From assembly GCF_000015865.1 (NCBI RefSeq), contig NC_009012.1, positions 1,240,001 through 1,304,000 of the forward strand: DNA of 64,000 nucleotides, read 5' to 3'. How positions within the stretch are numbered: position 1 is the first letter of the stretch; each line of letters starts with the position of its first letter. Origin of the DNA: Acetivibrio thermocellus ATCC 27405 (GTDB lineage: Bacteria > Bacillota > Clostridia > Acetivibrionales > Acetivibrionaceae). Under the pieces are notes generated by a model that ran no database searches, was not told the origin of the DNA, and worked only from the letters and a program-made list of their open reading frames with translations. Shown here piece after piece: positions 1,436-34,199 of this stretch. The translations under genes were made by a program, and so were the position numbers.

Positions 1436-1523
1436 AAAACTGTTTTTATACTAAGGACAACATAAAACTTGAATATTCAACATGCCAATTATGCTGTCCA
1501 TATTATCGTATAAAAACAGTTTT
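1436..1523. repeat. Large inverted-repeat element between gpr and the amidase gene
   Basis: Perfect 16-bp arms (1436-1451 and 1508-1523, AAAACTGTTTTTATAC and its complement) enclose 56 bases. Inside is a second GGACA/TGTCC pairing and a 12-base palindrome, TTGAATATTCAA. On the minus strand the outer arm runs into TTTTTTATTTTG, so it could end gpr transcription. It is much larger than a usual terminator. Confidence 0.6.
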
Positions 1524-1561
1524 ATTATAATATAAATTTTAATCGTAAAGCAGCCTGATTT

Positions 1562-2626
1562 CTACTGGACATACCGGTTGACATCGTTTAATGTAATACC
1601 TTGGTGAAGCGCAATATTAAGACCGTTAGCAATTACTTTTGCAATTCTGTCAACAACATCGTCAATTTCTTTCGGAGTTACCACAAGGTTGCCCACATAG
1701 GGCTGCAACACCTCTTGTATCAATTGATATTTTTCATTTCTGTCAATATTTTTAAGCATATTGTAAAAATGCGAATCTTCTTTTGCTTCTCTAATAAGGT
1801 TGTCTATAACGAGATCAATTGTGTCATTTGCCATGGTTGCCGCATCCACCACGGTCGGGACTCCGATTGCAATAACCGGAACTCCCAAAGTTTCTCTGGA
1901 AAGCTCCATTCTTTTGTTGCCGACTCCCGAACCCGGGGAAATTCCGGTATCCGCAATCTGAATAGTGGTATTCACTCTTTCCATTTTTCTGGAAGCTAAA
2001 GCATCTATCGCAATTACAACATCGGGTTTTACCCTGTCAACAATTCCTCTTACAATCTCACCCGTCTCTATACCGGTAATACCCAACACGCCGGGAGATA
2101 CCGCACACACCGGTCTTACCCCTTCATCAACCTGATCAGGAACATACTCAAGCAAATGCCTTGTGACCATAAGCCTTGAAACGACTTTCGGCCCCAATGC
2201 GTCCGGTGTGACATTCCAGTTACCCAATCCTATAACCAGAATTGTTGAGTCGTCTTTAAGATTCAATACACGTGTCAGTTCTTTGGCAAGAGCTTTGCAA
2301 GTCTCTTCGTACAATTCCTGGTCGTTTTCCTTGAGCCTGGGCACCTCAAGGGTGATATAATTACCCATCGGCTTTCCGATAGCCGCCTCACCGGTGGGTG
2401 ACGTTACCCTCACCCTGGTTATTCTTATATCTTCCGTACCGTCGTTTTCAACATCGACTCCCGGCGGTTCCCTTCTTTCGTTTTTAAACTCGTTTTCCTT
2501 CAAAAGCTCATGAGCTTCCAGCACAAGATCCGTTCTTATATTCCTTTCCACCCTGTAATCCTCCCTTATCCTTTTTGCCAAATGCAATATTTTCGAAAGT
2601 CCTATATATGCTCTATTTTTCCTCAA
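1562..2626 (-). CDS. gpr: Germination protease GPR
   Basis: 354 residues, the usual GPR length (peptidase family A25). The N-terminal region contains NIRTDLVLEAHEL, like the propeptide processing site and like the sequence GPR cuts in small acid-soluble spore proteins. The core has LVIGLGNWNVTPDALGP and the VVIAIDALASR segment typical of the family. GPR degrades SASPs early in germination to supply amino acids. The start is TTG 2626, with a stop just upstream and no clear ribosome site, so the exact start is uncertain. The gene lies upstream of the amidase gene on the same strand, separated by the inverted repeat. Confidence 0.93.
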   Translation of the reverse strand: MRKNRAYIGLSKILHLAKRIREDYRVERNIRTDLVLEAHELLKENEFKNERREPPGVDVENDGTEDIRITRVRVTSPTGEAAIGKPMGNYITLEVPRLKENDQELYEETCKALAKELTRVLNLKDDSTILVIGLGNWNVTPDALGPKVVSRLMVTRHLLEYVPDQVDEGVRPVCAVSPGVLGITGIETGEIVRGIVDRVKPDVVIAIDALASRKMERVNTTIQIADTGISPGSGVGNKRMELSRETLGVPVIAIGVPTVVDAATMANDTIDLVIDNLIREAKEDSHFYNMLKNIDRNEKYQLIQEVLQPYVGNLVVTPKEIDDVVDRIAKVIANGLNIALHQGITLNDVNRYVQ

Positions 2627-2785: not shown

Positions 2786-3055
2786 TTGCCAAATATTAAG
2801 TCTGCTATTAAAAGAGTGCGTATTTCAAAGAAAAAGACTCTTCAAAACAGCATGAGAAAATCAATACTTAAAACTAATATAAAGAAATGCAAACAAGCTA
2901 TCGCAAATAATGAGCCAAACGCTGTGGAAGCTCTCAAGCTTGCGATAAAGACTATAGATAAAGCAGCAGCAAAGAACATCATTCACAAAAACACCGCTGC
3001 GAGAAAAAAATCAAAGCTTGTAAAGGCATTGAACGCTGCCCTCAAACAACAATAA
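2786..3055 (+). CDS. rpsT: 30S ribosomal protein S20
   Basis: 89 residues beginning PNIKSAIKRVRISKKK, the classic basic S20 N terminus, and ending in the conserved HKNTAARKKSKL region. S20 binds 16S rRNA and acts in early 30S assembly. The start is TTG 2786, chosen because AGGAGG (2773-2778) sits 7 bases upstream and the S20 homology begins directly after it; the longer reading from 2708 crosses the promoter. A TTG start is common for rpsT. The gene is monocistronic and followed by two hairpin terminators. Confidence 0.97.
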   Translation: MPNIKSAIKRVRISKKKTLQNSMRKSILKTNIKKCKQAIANNEPNAVEALKLAIKTIDKAAAKNIIHKNTAARKKSKLVKALNAALKQQ

Positions 3056-3083
3056 AAACGTACTGGAAAGTACGTTTTTATAT
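3054..3083 (+). terminator. rpsT terminator
   Basis: Stem AAAAACGTACT (3054-3064) and AGTACGTTTTT (3069-3079) with a GGAA loop and a T-rich tail, directly at the rpsT stop. Confidence 0.9.
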
Positions 3084-3098
3084 TTAAGGCACGCTTTT

Positions 3099-3130
3099 AA
3101 AGCTCACGGGTTTTTCCCCGGAGCTTTTTT
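3099..3130 (+). terminator. Second terminator between rpsT and holA
   Basis: AAAGCTC-CGGG (3099-3110) pairs with CCCG-GAGCTTT (3117-3127), with one bulged A and a TTTTTT tail on the plus strand. It lies between the convergent rpsT and holA genes. Confidence 0.75.
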
Positions 3131-3140
3131 ATGCCGTTTT

Positions 3141-4151
3141 TTATTCAGCCGCCAAACTGCAGATTAATATTTCCACGGCCGTTCTGTCGTTTATCTGCCC
3201 CGTCTTTATCGAAAGATCCAGCTCAAGAGCTTGTCGTATTGCTTCCTTCAGTTTCTCCAAAGAAAAACAGTCGGTCTGCCGTACCATTTTTTTCGCGGCA
3301 TAAGGATTTATCCCCATCTTTGAACATGCTTCTTTTGCATCCATGCCCTTGCTGCACAAAAGCTTTAATTCCAACAACTGTTTTAATTGTTTTGCTATCA
3401 TAAACAAAATCTTTGGCATGGGTTCCTTTAAAATAATCATGTCATTTAAGAGCTTTAAAGCCAAATCAAGTTTTCTTTCGGCTATGGCGTCAATTAAATC
3501 AAATATTCTGCTTTTTATTGACTTTGTGCAAACCTTTTTTATACTATCTACGGTAACTTTCTGGCTTTCGCCCAAATAAAGAACAACTTTGTTTATTTCA
3601 TTTAATATTTCAGTCATTCCTTCCTCACATGTATCTATAAGGTATGATGCCGTATTTTCATCAATTGCCTTGCCGTAGGATTTGAAAACTTTAATGGCCC
3701 ATTTAACAAGTTCGGCCGGCTTTTGAAAAGGAAATTCCACCACCATACCGTATTTTTTCACGGCACTTGTTATTTTAAGTCTGTTATCAATATTTTCCTC
3801 ATAAAAAACAAGGCAGGTATGTTCAGGAATATTTTGTAAATACGTGATTAATTCATCATTTTTATTATTTGAGGAGCCTGACTTTTTTGAGTTAAACAAT
3901 TCCGACTTTTTAACAACAACCAGTTTTTTTTCCGCGAAAAACGGCATTGTCTCACATGCTTCAATAATCTTTGAAGCTTCCGCCTTTCCCTCTATCACTA
4001 TCTTGTTCAGCCCGGTTTGATCCCTGCTTAAAATAATTTCTTCTATTTTGCCCAGGTAAAATTTTTTCAGATATTCTTCTTCGCCGTAAAAAAGATAGAG
4101 TTTTCCCAGACTTTTGTTTTTTACTTCCAGTTTCAATTTATCTATACTCAT
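3141..4151 (-). CDS. holA: DNA polymerase III delta subunit
   Basis: 336 residues from ATG 4151, the usual HolA length. The N-terminal AAA+-like domain opens with KLYLFYGEEEYLKKFYL, the typical delta signature. A degenerate ATPase core follows, then the C-terminal helical domain ending in the SIKTGQINDRTAVEILI segment. Delta opens the sliding clamp within the clamp loader. Two equivalent starts exist, ATG 4151 and ATG 4169, because an 18-bp tandem duplication copies the GGGAGAG ribosome site and the start codon; see the separate repeat entry. holA is often next to rpsT, as here. Confidence 0.92.
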   Translation of the reverse strand: MSIDKLKLEVKNKSLGKLYLFYGEEEYLKKFYLGKIEEIILSRDQTGLNKIVIEGKAEASKIIEACETMPFFAEKKLVVVKKSELFNSKKSGSSNNKNDELITYLQNIPEHTCLVFYEENIDNRLKITSAVKKYGMVVEFPFQKPAELVKWAIKVFKSYGKAIDENTASYLIDTCEEGMTEILNEINKVVLYLGESQKVTVDSIKKVCTKSIKSRIFDLIDAIAERKLDLALKLLNDMIILKEPMPKILFMIAKQLKQLLELKLLCSKGMDAKEACSKMGINPYAAKKMVRQTDCFSLEKLKEAIRQALELDLSIKTGQINDRTAVEILICSLAAE

Positions 4152-8050: not shown

Positions 8051-8091
8051 TAAGGTTATTGGAAGACTTTAAGCCTAATCCAGAGTGACGG

Positions 8092-8160
8092 AACGACTCT
8101 TCCTCCGGTAATGCGGTGGCCCGGTCACAAGTCCGGGCGGGTAAGAAGGAGGCAGAAAGA
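8092..8160 (+). promoter_or_regulatory. Structured leader with possible ribosome-site sequestration and a two-codon ORF
   Basis: CCTCC (about 8101-8105) can pair with GGAGG (about 8147-8151), enclosing a CCCGG/CCGGG hairpin at about 8119-8138. The enclosed GGAGG precedes ATG CAA TAG (about 8162-8170), a complete two-codon reading frame. The same AGGAGGCAGAAA string recurs before the real start of the next gene at 8224. Confidence 0.35.
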
Positions 8161-25973: not shown

Positions 25974-26142
25974 CTTCTCTGTCCTTTTGCCTGAGAGATT
26001 TCTGAACAGTTCCCCAAAAACTGTTCATTTGCCCCTTCGGCGCCTTTACGGTCTCTCCAGAGGTGCGTCCGGCCATGGTCACAAAACCTGAAAGTATCAC
26101 TCCTTCGGTGCATTGGAACATCTCCAATGACTCTCCCATGAC
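25974..26142 (-). promoter_or_regulatory. Tandem glycine riboswitch (two aptamers)
   Basis: Read on the minus strand. Aptamer 1 (about 26139-26070) has GGGAGAGT, CACCGAAGGAGT and CTTTCAGG. Aptamer 2 (about 26062-25974) has GGAGAGACC, GCGCCGAAGGGGCAA, CTCTCAGGCAAAAGGACAGAG, which matches the glycine aptamer core almost exactly. It lies between a strong promoter and a terminator, and the next gene is glyA. Binding of glycine should set read-through; the direction (on or off) cannot be read from sequence with certainty. Confidence 0.95.
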
Positions 26143-26174
26143 AATCATCCGCTCATATTCAATTAACAAATAAA

Positions 26175-32241: not shown

Positions 32242-32904
32242 TTATCTGTAATCCGAATCAAGCCATTTCAAATAGTGATAAAGACACTTTAAATTGTTTT
32301 CCGATATGCCCCGGATTTCAATGCCATATTCGTAATAGTCGTTTACTTTGTTTTTCCTCACAACAGCTCCGCTAAAGACAAGTTTGTTCGTTCTGTCCAG
32401 CAAAATCTCCACTTCAAGAACATCTTCCGTTGTAAGCTGTTCATTGCAATTAATTTTTATACCGCCGGAACTCATGTTTTTCACAACTGCAAAAACAAGC
32501 TTGGAAGTCCCGCACACTCTGATATTGGCCATAAGACTTACATAAAATCTCTCATGCTTGCGCAAATCTTTCAATTTTTCAACTTTGTTTATCTTCACAT
32601 CAATGATCAGGGGATTAATATCATAAACGTGGTTGATATTTCCGTCCATTACAAAAAGATCTTGAGTATTGGAATAGTTTACGACAACGTGGTCACCCGG
32701 AAAGAAAAGTGTCTCTTTTAAAACGTCTTTTGCCTCAACTTTTATACTGTCGTCAGTTTTCCCGAGAACTTCGGCATTTATGTACTCGAACATTTTAAAA
32801 TGCTTTATATCAACTCCAGAGCCAAGTTTAACGACTTTCGCAGGATTCCTGTTACCCAAGGCATTAAACAGCCCGGTGCCCCCGTCCAGATTATACCTTG
32901 CCAT
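32242..32904 (-). CDS. PilZ-domain protein (YcgR-like, c-di-GMP receptor)
   Basis: 220 residues from ATG 32904 with GGAAGGAG 7 bases upstream. An N-terminal YcgR-like beta domain (about 20-105) is followed by a PilZ domain. Both c-di-GMP binding signatures are intact: RKHERFYV (RxxxR) and NMSSGGIKI (NxSxxG). Such proteins change motility, secretion or envelope functions on binding c-di-GMP. The target is not encoded next to it. The gene is back to back with a c-di-GMP-I riboswitch on the other strand, about 360 bases apart. Confidence 0.92.
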   Translation of the reverse strand: MARYNLDGGTGLFNALGNRNPAKVVKLGSGVDIKHFKMFEYINAEVLGKTDDSIKVEAKDVLKETLFFPGDHVVVNYSNTQDLFVMDGNINHVYDINPLIIDVKINKVEKLKDLRKHERFYVSLMANIRVCGTSKLVFAVVKNMSSGGIKINCNEQLTTEDVLEVEILLDRTNKLVFSGAVVRKNKVNDYYEYGIEIRGISENNLKCLYHYLKWLDSDYR

Positions 32905-33266
32905 ATCTCCACTCCTTCCGAGTTGAATTCCAAGCATCAATGTGACTACTTGGAAAATTTCTATTTCAGATTATGATAAATAAGCTTTGCATCCACGCTT
33001 GCCCCAAGCATTGATTCAAAGAAAACAAAACTGTCTGGAATGTTTGTTAATAGGATAAACAATTAGAGAAAAACCTTTATATAATTAATTATAGCATTAA
33101 TTATTTTCAAATTACAGTCCATTATTTAATTTTTTAAGAATAGTAATATTTTATAAAAAAATCGTAAAATAGTACTTGAAACCCTTTATTTTTTAAAAAT
33201 GCTGTGCTATAATAAAAGTAAGTTCAATATTTCCTCCCGAAAAAGGTATAAGGAGATATAAACTGT
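32905..33266. other. Divergent regulatory region between the PilZ gene and the c-di-GMP riboswitch
   Basis: About 360 AT-rich bases without a gene. It must hold the PilZ promoter (minus strand) and holds an extended -10 promoter for the riboswitch transcript (plus strand). Confidence 0.6.
33205..33213 (+). promoter_or_regulatory. Extended -10 promoter of the riboswitch transcript
   Basis: TGC-TATAAT (33205-33213; the hexamer is 33208-33213), about 50 bases before the aptamer. The -35 region (TTTATT) is poor, but the TGn extension compensates. Confidence 0.6.
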
Positions 33267-33375
33267 GACTTATGAAACAGGGCAAAATCATCGAAAGGTG
33301 ATGACGCAAAGCCATGGGTCTACTGTTTTAAAACAATGTTTTAAAGCTATGATCGCCAGGCTGCCATTAAAAGTC
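33267..33375 (+). promoter_or_regulatory. Cyclic di-GMP-I (GEMM) riboswitch aptamer
   Basis: The conserved GEMM-I core is plain: ACAGGGCAAA, a P2 stem ATCATC-GAAA-GGTGAT with the GNRA loop, GACGCAAAGCC, and the 3' strand ATGATCGCCAGGCTGCC. P1 can form between GACTT (33267-33271) and AAGTC (33371-33375). It is read on the plus strand, but the next gene on that strand is more than 10 kb away; recO lies opposite and is convergent. The aptamer has its own promoter and terminator. Confidence 0.92.
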
Positions 33376-33402
33376 CTGTTTATACTCTTCAAAATAAATG
33401 TA

Positions 33403-33445
33403 AAGGAAATAAGTCAGGTATATTTCCTTATACCTACTTTTTTTT
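33403..33445 (+). terminator. Terminator/antiterminator platform of the c-di-GMP riboswitch
   Basis: GGTATA-TTTCCT-TATACC (33417-33434), followed by TAC and eight T, is a terminator. AAGGAAATA (33403-33411) can instead pair with TATTTCCTT (33421-33429), which would break the terminator. The T run overlaps the recO stop codon at 33444-33446. Confidence 0.8.
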
Positions 33446-34199
33446 AGCATTTTATCCTGTCAAGAGTCTTGATAAAATCCAGCTTGGTGTAGTTTTTTTC
33501 AAGTCTTTCTTTCATATACCGTTGTGAAACTTTGCCAAGTTCGTCCAACACACTCTCCGATACCTCAAAACTGAACAAATTGCTCATTTTACTGTGCACT
33601 ATGTAATTTAGTGCCTTTGCGGCACCTTCGGAAATTTTTAATGCTCCTTTATCATTTTCAAGGCATTTGCTGCACAAAAATCCGCATTTTAAGAAACTGA
33701 AATACATACTGTCAAAAACGGTGCTGCCACATTTTATACAGCTGCTCACCCACGGCGCATATCCCATTGTTGAAAGAAGTCTTATTTCAAACACTCTTAC
33801 TATTTGCAGCGGCGACCTGTCTGTTTTCGAAAGCATGTACAATGAGTTTAAAAAAAGCTGCAACAACCTGGATGCAGGCTGATTTTCCAAAATTACATCA
33901 TTTACTATATCCATCATATGGGCAGCATATGTTAATCTTTCAAGATCATTTCGGATATCATAAAAAGACTCAATAACATCACAGCTATTGACGGTATACA
34001 TGTCTTTGCCTTTAAAGAGAACAAATTCGCTGTAGCATAATAATTGTGTCCCTGCAACCAGGTGACTTTTCGGTCTTCTTGCACCTTTTGCCAAAGCGGA
34101 TATCTTGCCTTTATTCTTGGAAAATATTGTTATTATTCTGTCAGCTTCCCCCGTATTAACTTCTTTTATAACTATCCCTGAAGTTTTTAAATAATTCAT
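33444..34199 (-). CDS. recO: DNA repair protein RecO
   Basis: 251 residues. The N-terminal OB domain has KTSGIVIKEVNTGEADRIITIFSKNKGKISALAKGARRPKS. The C-terminal helical domain includes a four-Cys zinc site (CIKCG and CSKC at about 157-186). RecO loads RecA on SSB-coated DNA in the RecFOR pathway. ATG 34199 follows yqzL by 15 bases. Last gene of the yqfC-recO cluster; its 3' end meets the riboswitch transcript head-on. Confidence 0.95.
   Translation of the reverse strand: MNYLKTSGIVIKEVNTGEADRIITIFSKNKGKISALAKGARRPKSHLVAGTQLLCYSEFVLFKGKDMYTVNSCDVIESFYDIRNDLERLTYAAHMMDIVNDVILENQPASRLLQLFLNSLYMLSKTDRSPLQIVRVFEIRLLSTMGYAPWVSSCIKCGSTVFDSMYFSFLKCGFLCSKCLENDKGALKISEGAAKALNYIVHSKMSNLFSFEVSESVLDELGKVSQRYMKERLEKNYTKLDFIKTLDRIKC

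Follow-up and report, generated by a model that had tools for sequence, protein, structure and literature searches.

The window analysed here is a stretch of 64,000 nucleotides of the Acetivibrio thermocellus ATCC 27405 genome, which is a single contig of 3,843,301 bases with four c-di-GMP-I aptamers and ten GGDEF domain matches. An Rfam scan of the window places one of these aptamers on the plus strand in the gap between a divergent PilZ-domain gene and recO (Table 1), scoring 75.5 bits (gathering score 35, E 5.1e-13). An earlier reading made from the sequence alone had proposed a c-di-GMP-I riboswitch at this position, and the scan bears that identification out. It had also pointed to the absence of a plus-strand gene behind the element, and this too holds: there is none 3' of the element in the window, recO is convergent, and the eight-T run overlaps the recO stop codon. 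The sole plus-strand open reading frame across the element (33265-33447, 60 aa) was rejected as a gene, as it is not preserved in relatives. As a class, c-di-GMP riboswitches are known as cis leaders of genes. Canonical c-di-GMP-I leaders have been described in C. difficile (PMC3649979, excerpt), and riboswitches are said to lie nearly always in line with the gene they control (PMC7266159, excerpt).

Table 1. Parts of the predicted RNA unit and its neighbouring genes, in coordinates of the window
Feature	Coordinates	Strand	Basis or remark
Extended -10 promoter TGcTATAAT	33205..33213	+	Sequence; TGnTA(T/C/A)AAT in 42/42 aligned copies
Predicted transcript start	about 33221	+	Prediction
Predicted stand-alone RNA, ~225 nt	33221..33445	+	Kept from promoter to T-run; identity drops outside
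S block CAATATTTCCTCCC, C-rich, candidate anti-ribosome-binding-site seed	33225..33238	+	Same in 13/13 subfamily-A copies
K strand GGTATAAGGAGATATAAA	33245..33262	+	Partner is P1' (aptamer state) or T (long-range state)
GACTTAT	33267..33273	+	Partner is AAGTC of P1' or ATAAGTC at 33409-33415
c-di-GMP-I aptamer	33271..33368	+	RF01051, 75.5 bits; stem covariation in family
P1' strand AAGTCCTGTTTATACTCTT, 3' side of aptamer-closing helix	33371..33389	+	Its CTGTTT has a second possible partner in aptamer core AAACAG
H strand AAGGAAATAAGTC, alternative local partner of T	33403..33415	+	Antiterminator of the sequence-only reading; missing in distant copy L023
Local hairpin AGGTATA/TATACCT	33416..33435	+	Terminator of the sequence-only reading; not family-wide
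T strand TATATTTCCTTATACC	33419..33434	+	Partner is K or H
T-run, predicted 3' end of terminated RNA	33438..33445	+	At least 6 T in 8 in 41/42 copies
recO, convergent neighbour	33444..34199	-	Pfam RecO_N + RecO_C
PilZ-domain gene, divergent neighbour	32242..32940	-	Pfam PilZ

The element is one of many. A DNA search with positions 33140-33520 gave matches in 32 of 60 relatives; many of these are restricted to the aptamer, and a clear group covers the body through the T-run, often two or three times per genome. With a sequence-only family model built from 42 aligned copies, we find in the order at least 44 matches that score 96 bits or more, spread over 19 of 58 genomes, and the next match scores 62 bits. 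The window's family has 13 carriers among 14 genomes (the exception is 55% complete); all five genomes of a second family and the sole genome of a third also carry the unit, with up to three paralogues per genome. In a sample of 391 genomes of the class, the top score outside the window's family is 57.9 bits; genomes of the second and third families are not among the matches listed in that search, presumably because they were not drawn. The order and class counts are lower bounds, since filters are stricter in searches that span over 40 genomes. When named genomes were scanned with an exact pattern, 32 stretches matched, with titles from Acetivibrio, Herbivorax, Pseudobacteroides and clostridial or Bacillota MAGs, and the relatives represented include Acetivibrio straminisolvens and A. 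mesophilus.

Conservation in these copies extends from the promoter to the T-run and ends there. The extended -10 motif TGnTA(T/C/A)AAT, which the sequence-only reading had assigned to the element as its own promoter, is present in 42 of 42 aligned copies as against 17 of 1635 background windows, and a run of at least six T in eight lies 3' of the unit in 41 of 42. Outside the unit, block identity drops to 0.38-0.50 in subfamilies A-C. These counts refer to alignment A1, whose 42 copies exclude L024 and L048 (aptamer only), L001-L003, L023, L054 and L080; the promoter count likewise excludes L080, and L023 is included in alignment A2. Four further copies rescanned with RF01051 score 71.8-76.9 bits. 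Promoter, aptamer, switching strands and T-run are thus kept in two families and partly in the third, and we regard the element as almost certainly a conserved stand-alone RNA. Its sequence suggests a dedicated RNA gene with a c-di-GMP-I aptamer at its core, and Acetivibrionales carry several such paralogues. In two species the copies (L014 and L017) have about 45 nt extra between P1' and H, which could fold as a hairpin of its own.

Within this body, the K strand has two alternative partners. It can pair over a distance of about 160 nt with T (arms 33244-33260 and 33419-33435, 17 nt, 94% complementary), and this K:T pairing is contained in the minimum-energy fold of 33225-33450 (z -5.41; none of 200 shuffles equals it), with its first 11 pairs formable in all 42 aligned copies. 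It can also close the aptamer by pairing with P1', where 93.5% of cells are paired and one pair is altered on both sides in three copies. T in turn has a local partner in H (33403-33411 with 33421-33429), paired in 90.5% of cells over 42 copies, so that the antiterminator hairpin of the sequence-only reading stands. The terminator hairpin that it set against this one is present in the window copy (arms 33416-33422 and 33429-33435 by inspection), but a local fold that pairs at least four residues just before the T-run is found in only 11 of 42 copies, and a local hairpin therefore cannot be the general mechanism. Of the two mutually exclusive hairpins once proposed, then, the antiterminator is conserved and the terminator is not, and the third and longer pairing, K:T, had been overlooked.

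The substitution patterns in these helices differ in what they can tell. RNAalifold recovers the aptamer stems together with K:T from the 42 copies and reports 13 pairs with changes on both sides, all in aptamer stems; the aptamer fold appears to be maintained by selection, in keeping with membership of the aptamer class. In the 42 main copies K:T does not covary, because 12 of its 16 pairs never vary. In the distant copy L023, one K:T pair has changed on both sides from U-A to C-G and one A-U has become G-U; the double change is a single event, which 23 of 500 shuffles match. K:T also holds one constant G-U pair, as would be expected if K and T must each serve two partners: the G of K faces C in P1' in 36 of 42 copies, and the H residue opposite the U of T is A or G in 41 of 42.

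Folding also bears on the ligand pocket. The aptamer core AAACAG can form six of six pairs with CTGTTT of P1' in 39 of 42 copies, and this pairing, seen in the free fold, would disable the pocket in the model. In constrained folding that excludes ligand energy, the aptamer state averages 10.7 kcal/mol above the long-range state, and the bound state is the more stable of the two in 4 of 42 copies. We consider it probable that the exchange between K:T and K:P1' is the switch. As for its ligand, a G is invariant in 42 of 42 copies at the aptamer position matched to G20, which we take to be G20 in Vc2 numbering, and this residue is the sole pointer to c-di-GMP over c-GAMP as the putative signal. 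A G20A variant is described in PMC6274999 (excerpt).

Near its 5' end the RNA carries the C-rich block S, whose core is identical within each subfamily (A 13/13, B 8/8, C 11/11, D 4/4, E 3/3). The unpaired fraction of S is 0.83 in the free fold, 0.85 in the long-range fold and 0.61 in the bound fold. S appears to resemble the complement of a ribosome-binding site, that is, of a Shine-Dalgarno (SD) sequence plus start codon: for five of nine block types the complement reads as a purine stretch followed at 3-9 nt by ATG (null mean 1.2, p 0.0018), and for six of nine (p 0.025) if GTG and TTG starts are also allowed. The likeness was noticed first and tested afterwards, and so it is suggestive only. 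We rejected the notion that S is a mere partner of K, given that shuffled S was clearly outdone in only two of three A copies, out of 14 representatives in all (0.01, 0.02 and 0.13 for the A copies, 0.13-0.74 for the others). In subfamilies C and D, S starts with TTGTAC, a motif also present or nearly so near the -35 position (e.g. L062, L075-L077), and part of S may therefore be an operator.

Target searches with the complements of S did not converge on a convincing target common to genomes for A, B or C. The A complement, searched in four genomes, gave 127 matches in genome G000 against 43 for the control, with targets judged among the matches listed, 30 loci; the B complement gave 18 against 25 and no convincing shared target; and the C complement, searched in six genomes, gave 73 against 16. 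Among 63 fetched loci of these 73 there was no orthologous target pair across genomes, and similar proteins were found only within one genome. We claim no match as a target, since ordinary SD sequences would by themselves produce such an excess over the control. Among the matches inspected, the start region of a KtrB/TrkH-like gene, which the A complement matches with one mismatch and, in both G000 and G004, truly upstream of the gene, is the best lead for subfamily A, in two species. A BioH-like gene is matched by the C complement with two mismatches in the same two genomes and has a TTG start farther down. A primase-like gene is shared by G000, G004 and G005, but there the match lies inside coding sequence with 205-220 codons open upstream. 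Neighbouring genes were likewise rejected as targets of S: among background start regions, the median rank is 0.37 for pilZ and 0.46-0.75 for the others, and pilZ falls in the top 1% for two of 13 A copies (L014 and L017) and not for the other 11.

Taken together, we lean slightly towards reading the unit as a c-di-GMP-gated stand-alone RNA that is switched by the K:T/K:P1' exchange, acts in trans through S and is active at low c-di-GMP. At low c-di-GMP, K would pair with T, GACUUAU with AURRGUC, and the core AAACAG with CUGUUU; the long K:T helix would abut the U-tract, and the RNA would terminate as an sRNA of about 225 nt whose single-stranded S could pair in trans with target mRNAs at their ribosome-binding sites. 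With c-di-GMP high, the aptamer would fold, P1' would capture K and T would revert to H. The helix before the U-tract would then be gone and S less accessible, so that termination, sRNA activity or both would fall. For the individual parts, action in trans through S seems to us a little better than an even bet on sequence grounds, and for the sign of the response, with the RNA active when c-di-GMP is low, we see an even chance. The sequence-only reading had offered a trans-acting short RNA as one of three options, and of these it fits best, even though the searches above yielded no convincing shared target.

The sign is also where the most serious rival lies. Binding of the ligand might instead cause termination through a local hairpin (e.g. 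33416-33435), with the terminated RNA acting at high c-di-GMP. The window copy does have such a hairpin, which forms in its modelled bound state, and Cd1 is described as a transcriptional OFF-switch (PMC9262584, excerpt). Against this stand the low count of copies, only 11 of 42, in which a local fold reaches the stretch before the T-run, and a copy that has no aptamer and retains K:T. On balance we judge this opposite sign unlikely, if a good deal less so than the alternatives below; the extra local hairpin could terminate in the bound state, which makes the sign of the response least certain for the window copy itself. The aptamer-less copy, L054 (2970-3084; 1394669-1394783 of the genome that the window comes from), is of C type and still has promoter, S, K, P1', H, T and tail, and its minimum-energy fold is K:T. 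This natural deletion suggests a separate use for the RNA body, and under our preferred reading of a gated RNA, this paralogue in the window's own genome would be a constitutive version.

The genomic context of the copies bears on what, if anything, is controlled in cis. Applying one neighbour rule mechanically to all copies, and counting ORFs from 80 aa upwards, we find that 36 of 43 copies are followed by an opposite-strand ORF and seven by a same-strand one. The same-strand exceptions are four D copies, at 460-653 nt, and three with ORFs of 115-122 aa, one of which was scanned and has no Pfam match. All 32 canonical c-di-GMP-I loci, by comparison, are followed by a same-strand ORF, within 500 nt in 31 cases (Fisher 1.9e-14 for the strand contrast, in which the copies are homologous and not independent). 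The 43-copy set includes L054 and L080, and a further copy, L064, lacks a downstream ORF on its contig. As canonical loci we used a subset of the canonical matches, 32 loci from the same search sets, mostly one per genome, in which L001 and L002 form a tandem ahead of one gene.

The comparison of the recO-PilZ gap in relatives, proposed at the outset, places 13 of 13 subfamily-A copies there. Other subfamilies lie elsewhere: B faces Tad-pilus-like genes or a LuxR-type response regulator, and C has a downstream gene that varies and, in 10 of 12 loci, radical-SAM and LigB/AMMECR1 genes on its upstream side. Two species have a c-di-AMP riboswitch some 2.5 kb away from the subfamily-C RNA (L054, 5524-5654; L062, 5624-5754, minus strand). 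These neighbourhoods bear on the possibility that c-di-GMP governs read-through into the convergent gene, here recO, in the manner of the AspocR riboswitch of Listeria (PMC8079631, excerpt). The prevalence of convergent next ORFs (36/43) and the constancy of recO in subfamily A (13/13) would fit such antisense control. However, the convergent gene varies between and within subfamilies while the RNA is constant: the same body faces unrelated genes, Tad-pilus-like, LuxR-type, hydrolase-like and others, and identity beyond the T-run is only 0.38-0.50. Antisense tuning of recO, yqzL and era, as first suggested, is thus not supported as the conserved function, and we hold antisense control in general to be improbable; with recO facing all 13 subfamily-A copies, the window copy is where it could still apply.

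We think it very improbable that the element is a riboswitch controlling in cis a small gene or leader peptide overlooked by gene calling. K does resemble a ribosome-binding site, an ATG follows 3' in 42 of 42 copies with a 9-10 codon frame in most, and sense ORFs lie downstream of L023 and of the four D copies. Yet that ATG frame is dictated by the aptamer sequence, the SD-ATG spacing is 12-16 nt by inspection, and a GTG frame varies in length and is missing in many copies. L023 is the most distant copy, from the third family; its element (1500-1655, plus strand) lacks the H strand, and an ilvD-like sense ORF, identified by eye, begins at 1833 on the plus strand about 180 nt past the T-run, so L023 itself may be a cis element. 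L080 (about 2964-3193, minus strand; second family, on the recO side) has no TATAAT and no T-run, retains K, the aptamer and T, and looks like a decaying copy. Such losses in L080 and L054, and the lack of a sense gene in the window, are what a relic of a lost target gene would show, but with at least 44 copies conserving promoter, aptamer, platform and tail, with the whole unit kept in two families and partly in a third, and with paralogues present, that earlier suggestion is contradicted and the least probable of all.

Our preferred reading of a gated stand-alone RNA has partial parallels among known systems. The family shares the aptamer sequence and structure of RF01051 (GEMM-I), well above the gathering score, and differs in that most copies are without a cis gene, whereas canonical loci precede a sense ORF in 32 of 32; control of a same-strand downstream gene is not what characterizes the family. 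The riboswitch-containing sRNA of DebRoy 2014 is reportedly named EutX. Like SreA/SreB, Rli55 and AspocR, this response-regulator-sequestering sRNA is a riboswitch RNA whose action is not confined to the gene downstream of it (PMC8383071 and PMC8079631, excerpts). SreA has its own downstream operon, while the family here is gene-less and multi-copy and does not lead operons in cis. Rli55 and EutX respond to vitamin B12 and work by sequestering a protein, and the predicted ligand here is c-di-GMP. AspocR, likewise a vitamin B12 riboswitch, is similar in lying opposite in strand to its neighbour gene (PMC8079631, excerpt); in our family that neighbour is not fixed, recO being constant only within subfamily A.

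For the switch, the closest comparison is with pilM (c-GAMP, ON) and Cd1 (c-di-GMP, OFF), whose aptamers are homologous to those of the family and illustrate that related aptamers can follow either logic (PMC9262584, excerpt). In pilM the aptamer and terminator folds are mutually exclusive, as we propose here (same excerpt). Both pilM and Cd1 precede genes, and here the 5' strand of the aptamer helix doubles as an arm of the proposed terminator helix. On the side of the seed, RsaE is one of the C-rich Gram-positive sRNAs that bind ribosome-binding sites, and those known to us are without an aptamer. LhrC, another, has an unpaired C-rich block complementary to the SD, like S (PMC8383071, excerpt); for our family the complementarity of S to ribosome-binding sites is a likeness in sequence, and yields candidate targets only. 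A search of the open-licence literature found no trans-acting or stand-alone c-di-GMP riboswitch and no report of this element, which is a weak negative.

We put at about even the broader proposition that Acetivibrionales possess a gene family of c-di-GMP-sensing sRNAs, trans regulators gated by one switch body in which each paralogue has its own anti-ribosome-binding-site block. If this is true, the c-di-GMP signal is converted directly into a free-standing regulatory RNA in cellulose-degrading clostridia, hosts that are of industrial interest, and a set of gene-less c-di-GMP-I RNAs would give the second messenger a direct RNA route to distant mRNAs. The paralogues form a natural test set, as they share the switch body and differ in their 5' blocks, and a natural aptamer deletion is among them. 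The Rfam scan of the window also gave a Type-P5 twister ribozyme match at 8079-8136 on the plus strand (39.5 bits against a gathering score of 37.6) and tandem glycine riboswitch aptamers at 25977-26148 on the minus strand (48.9 and 42 bits).
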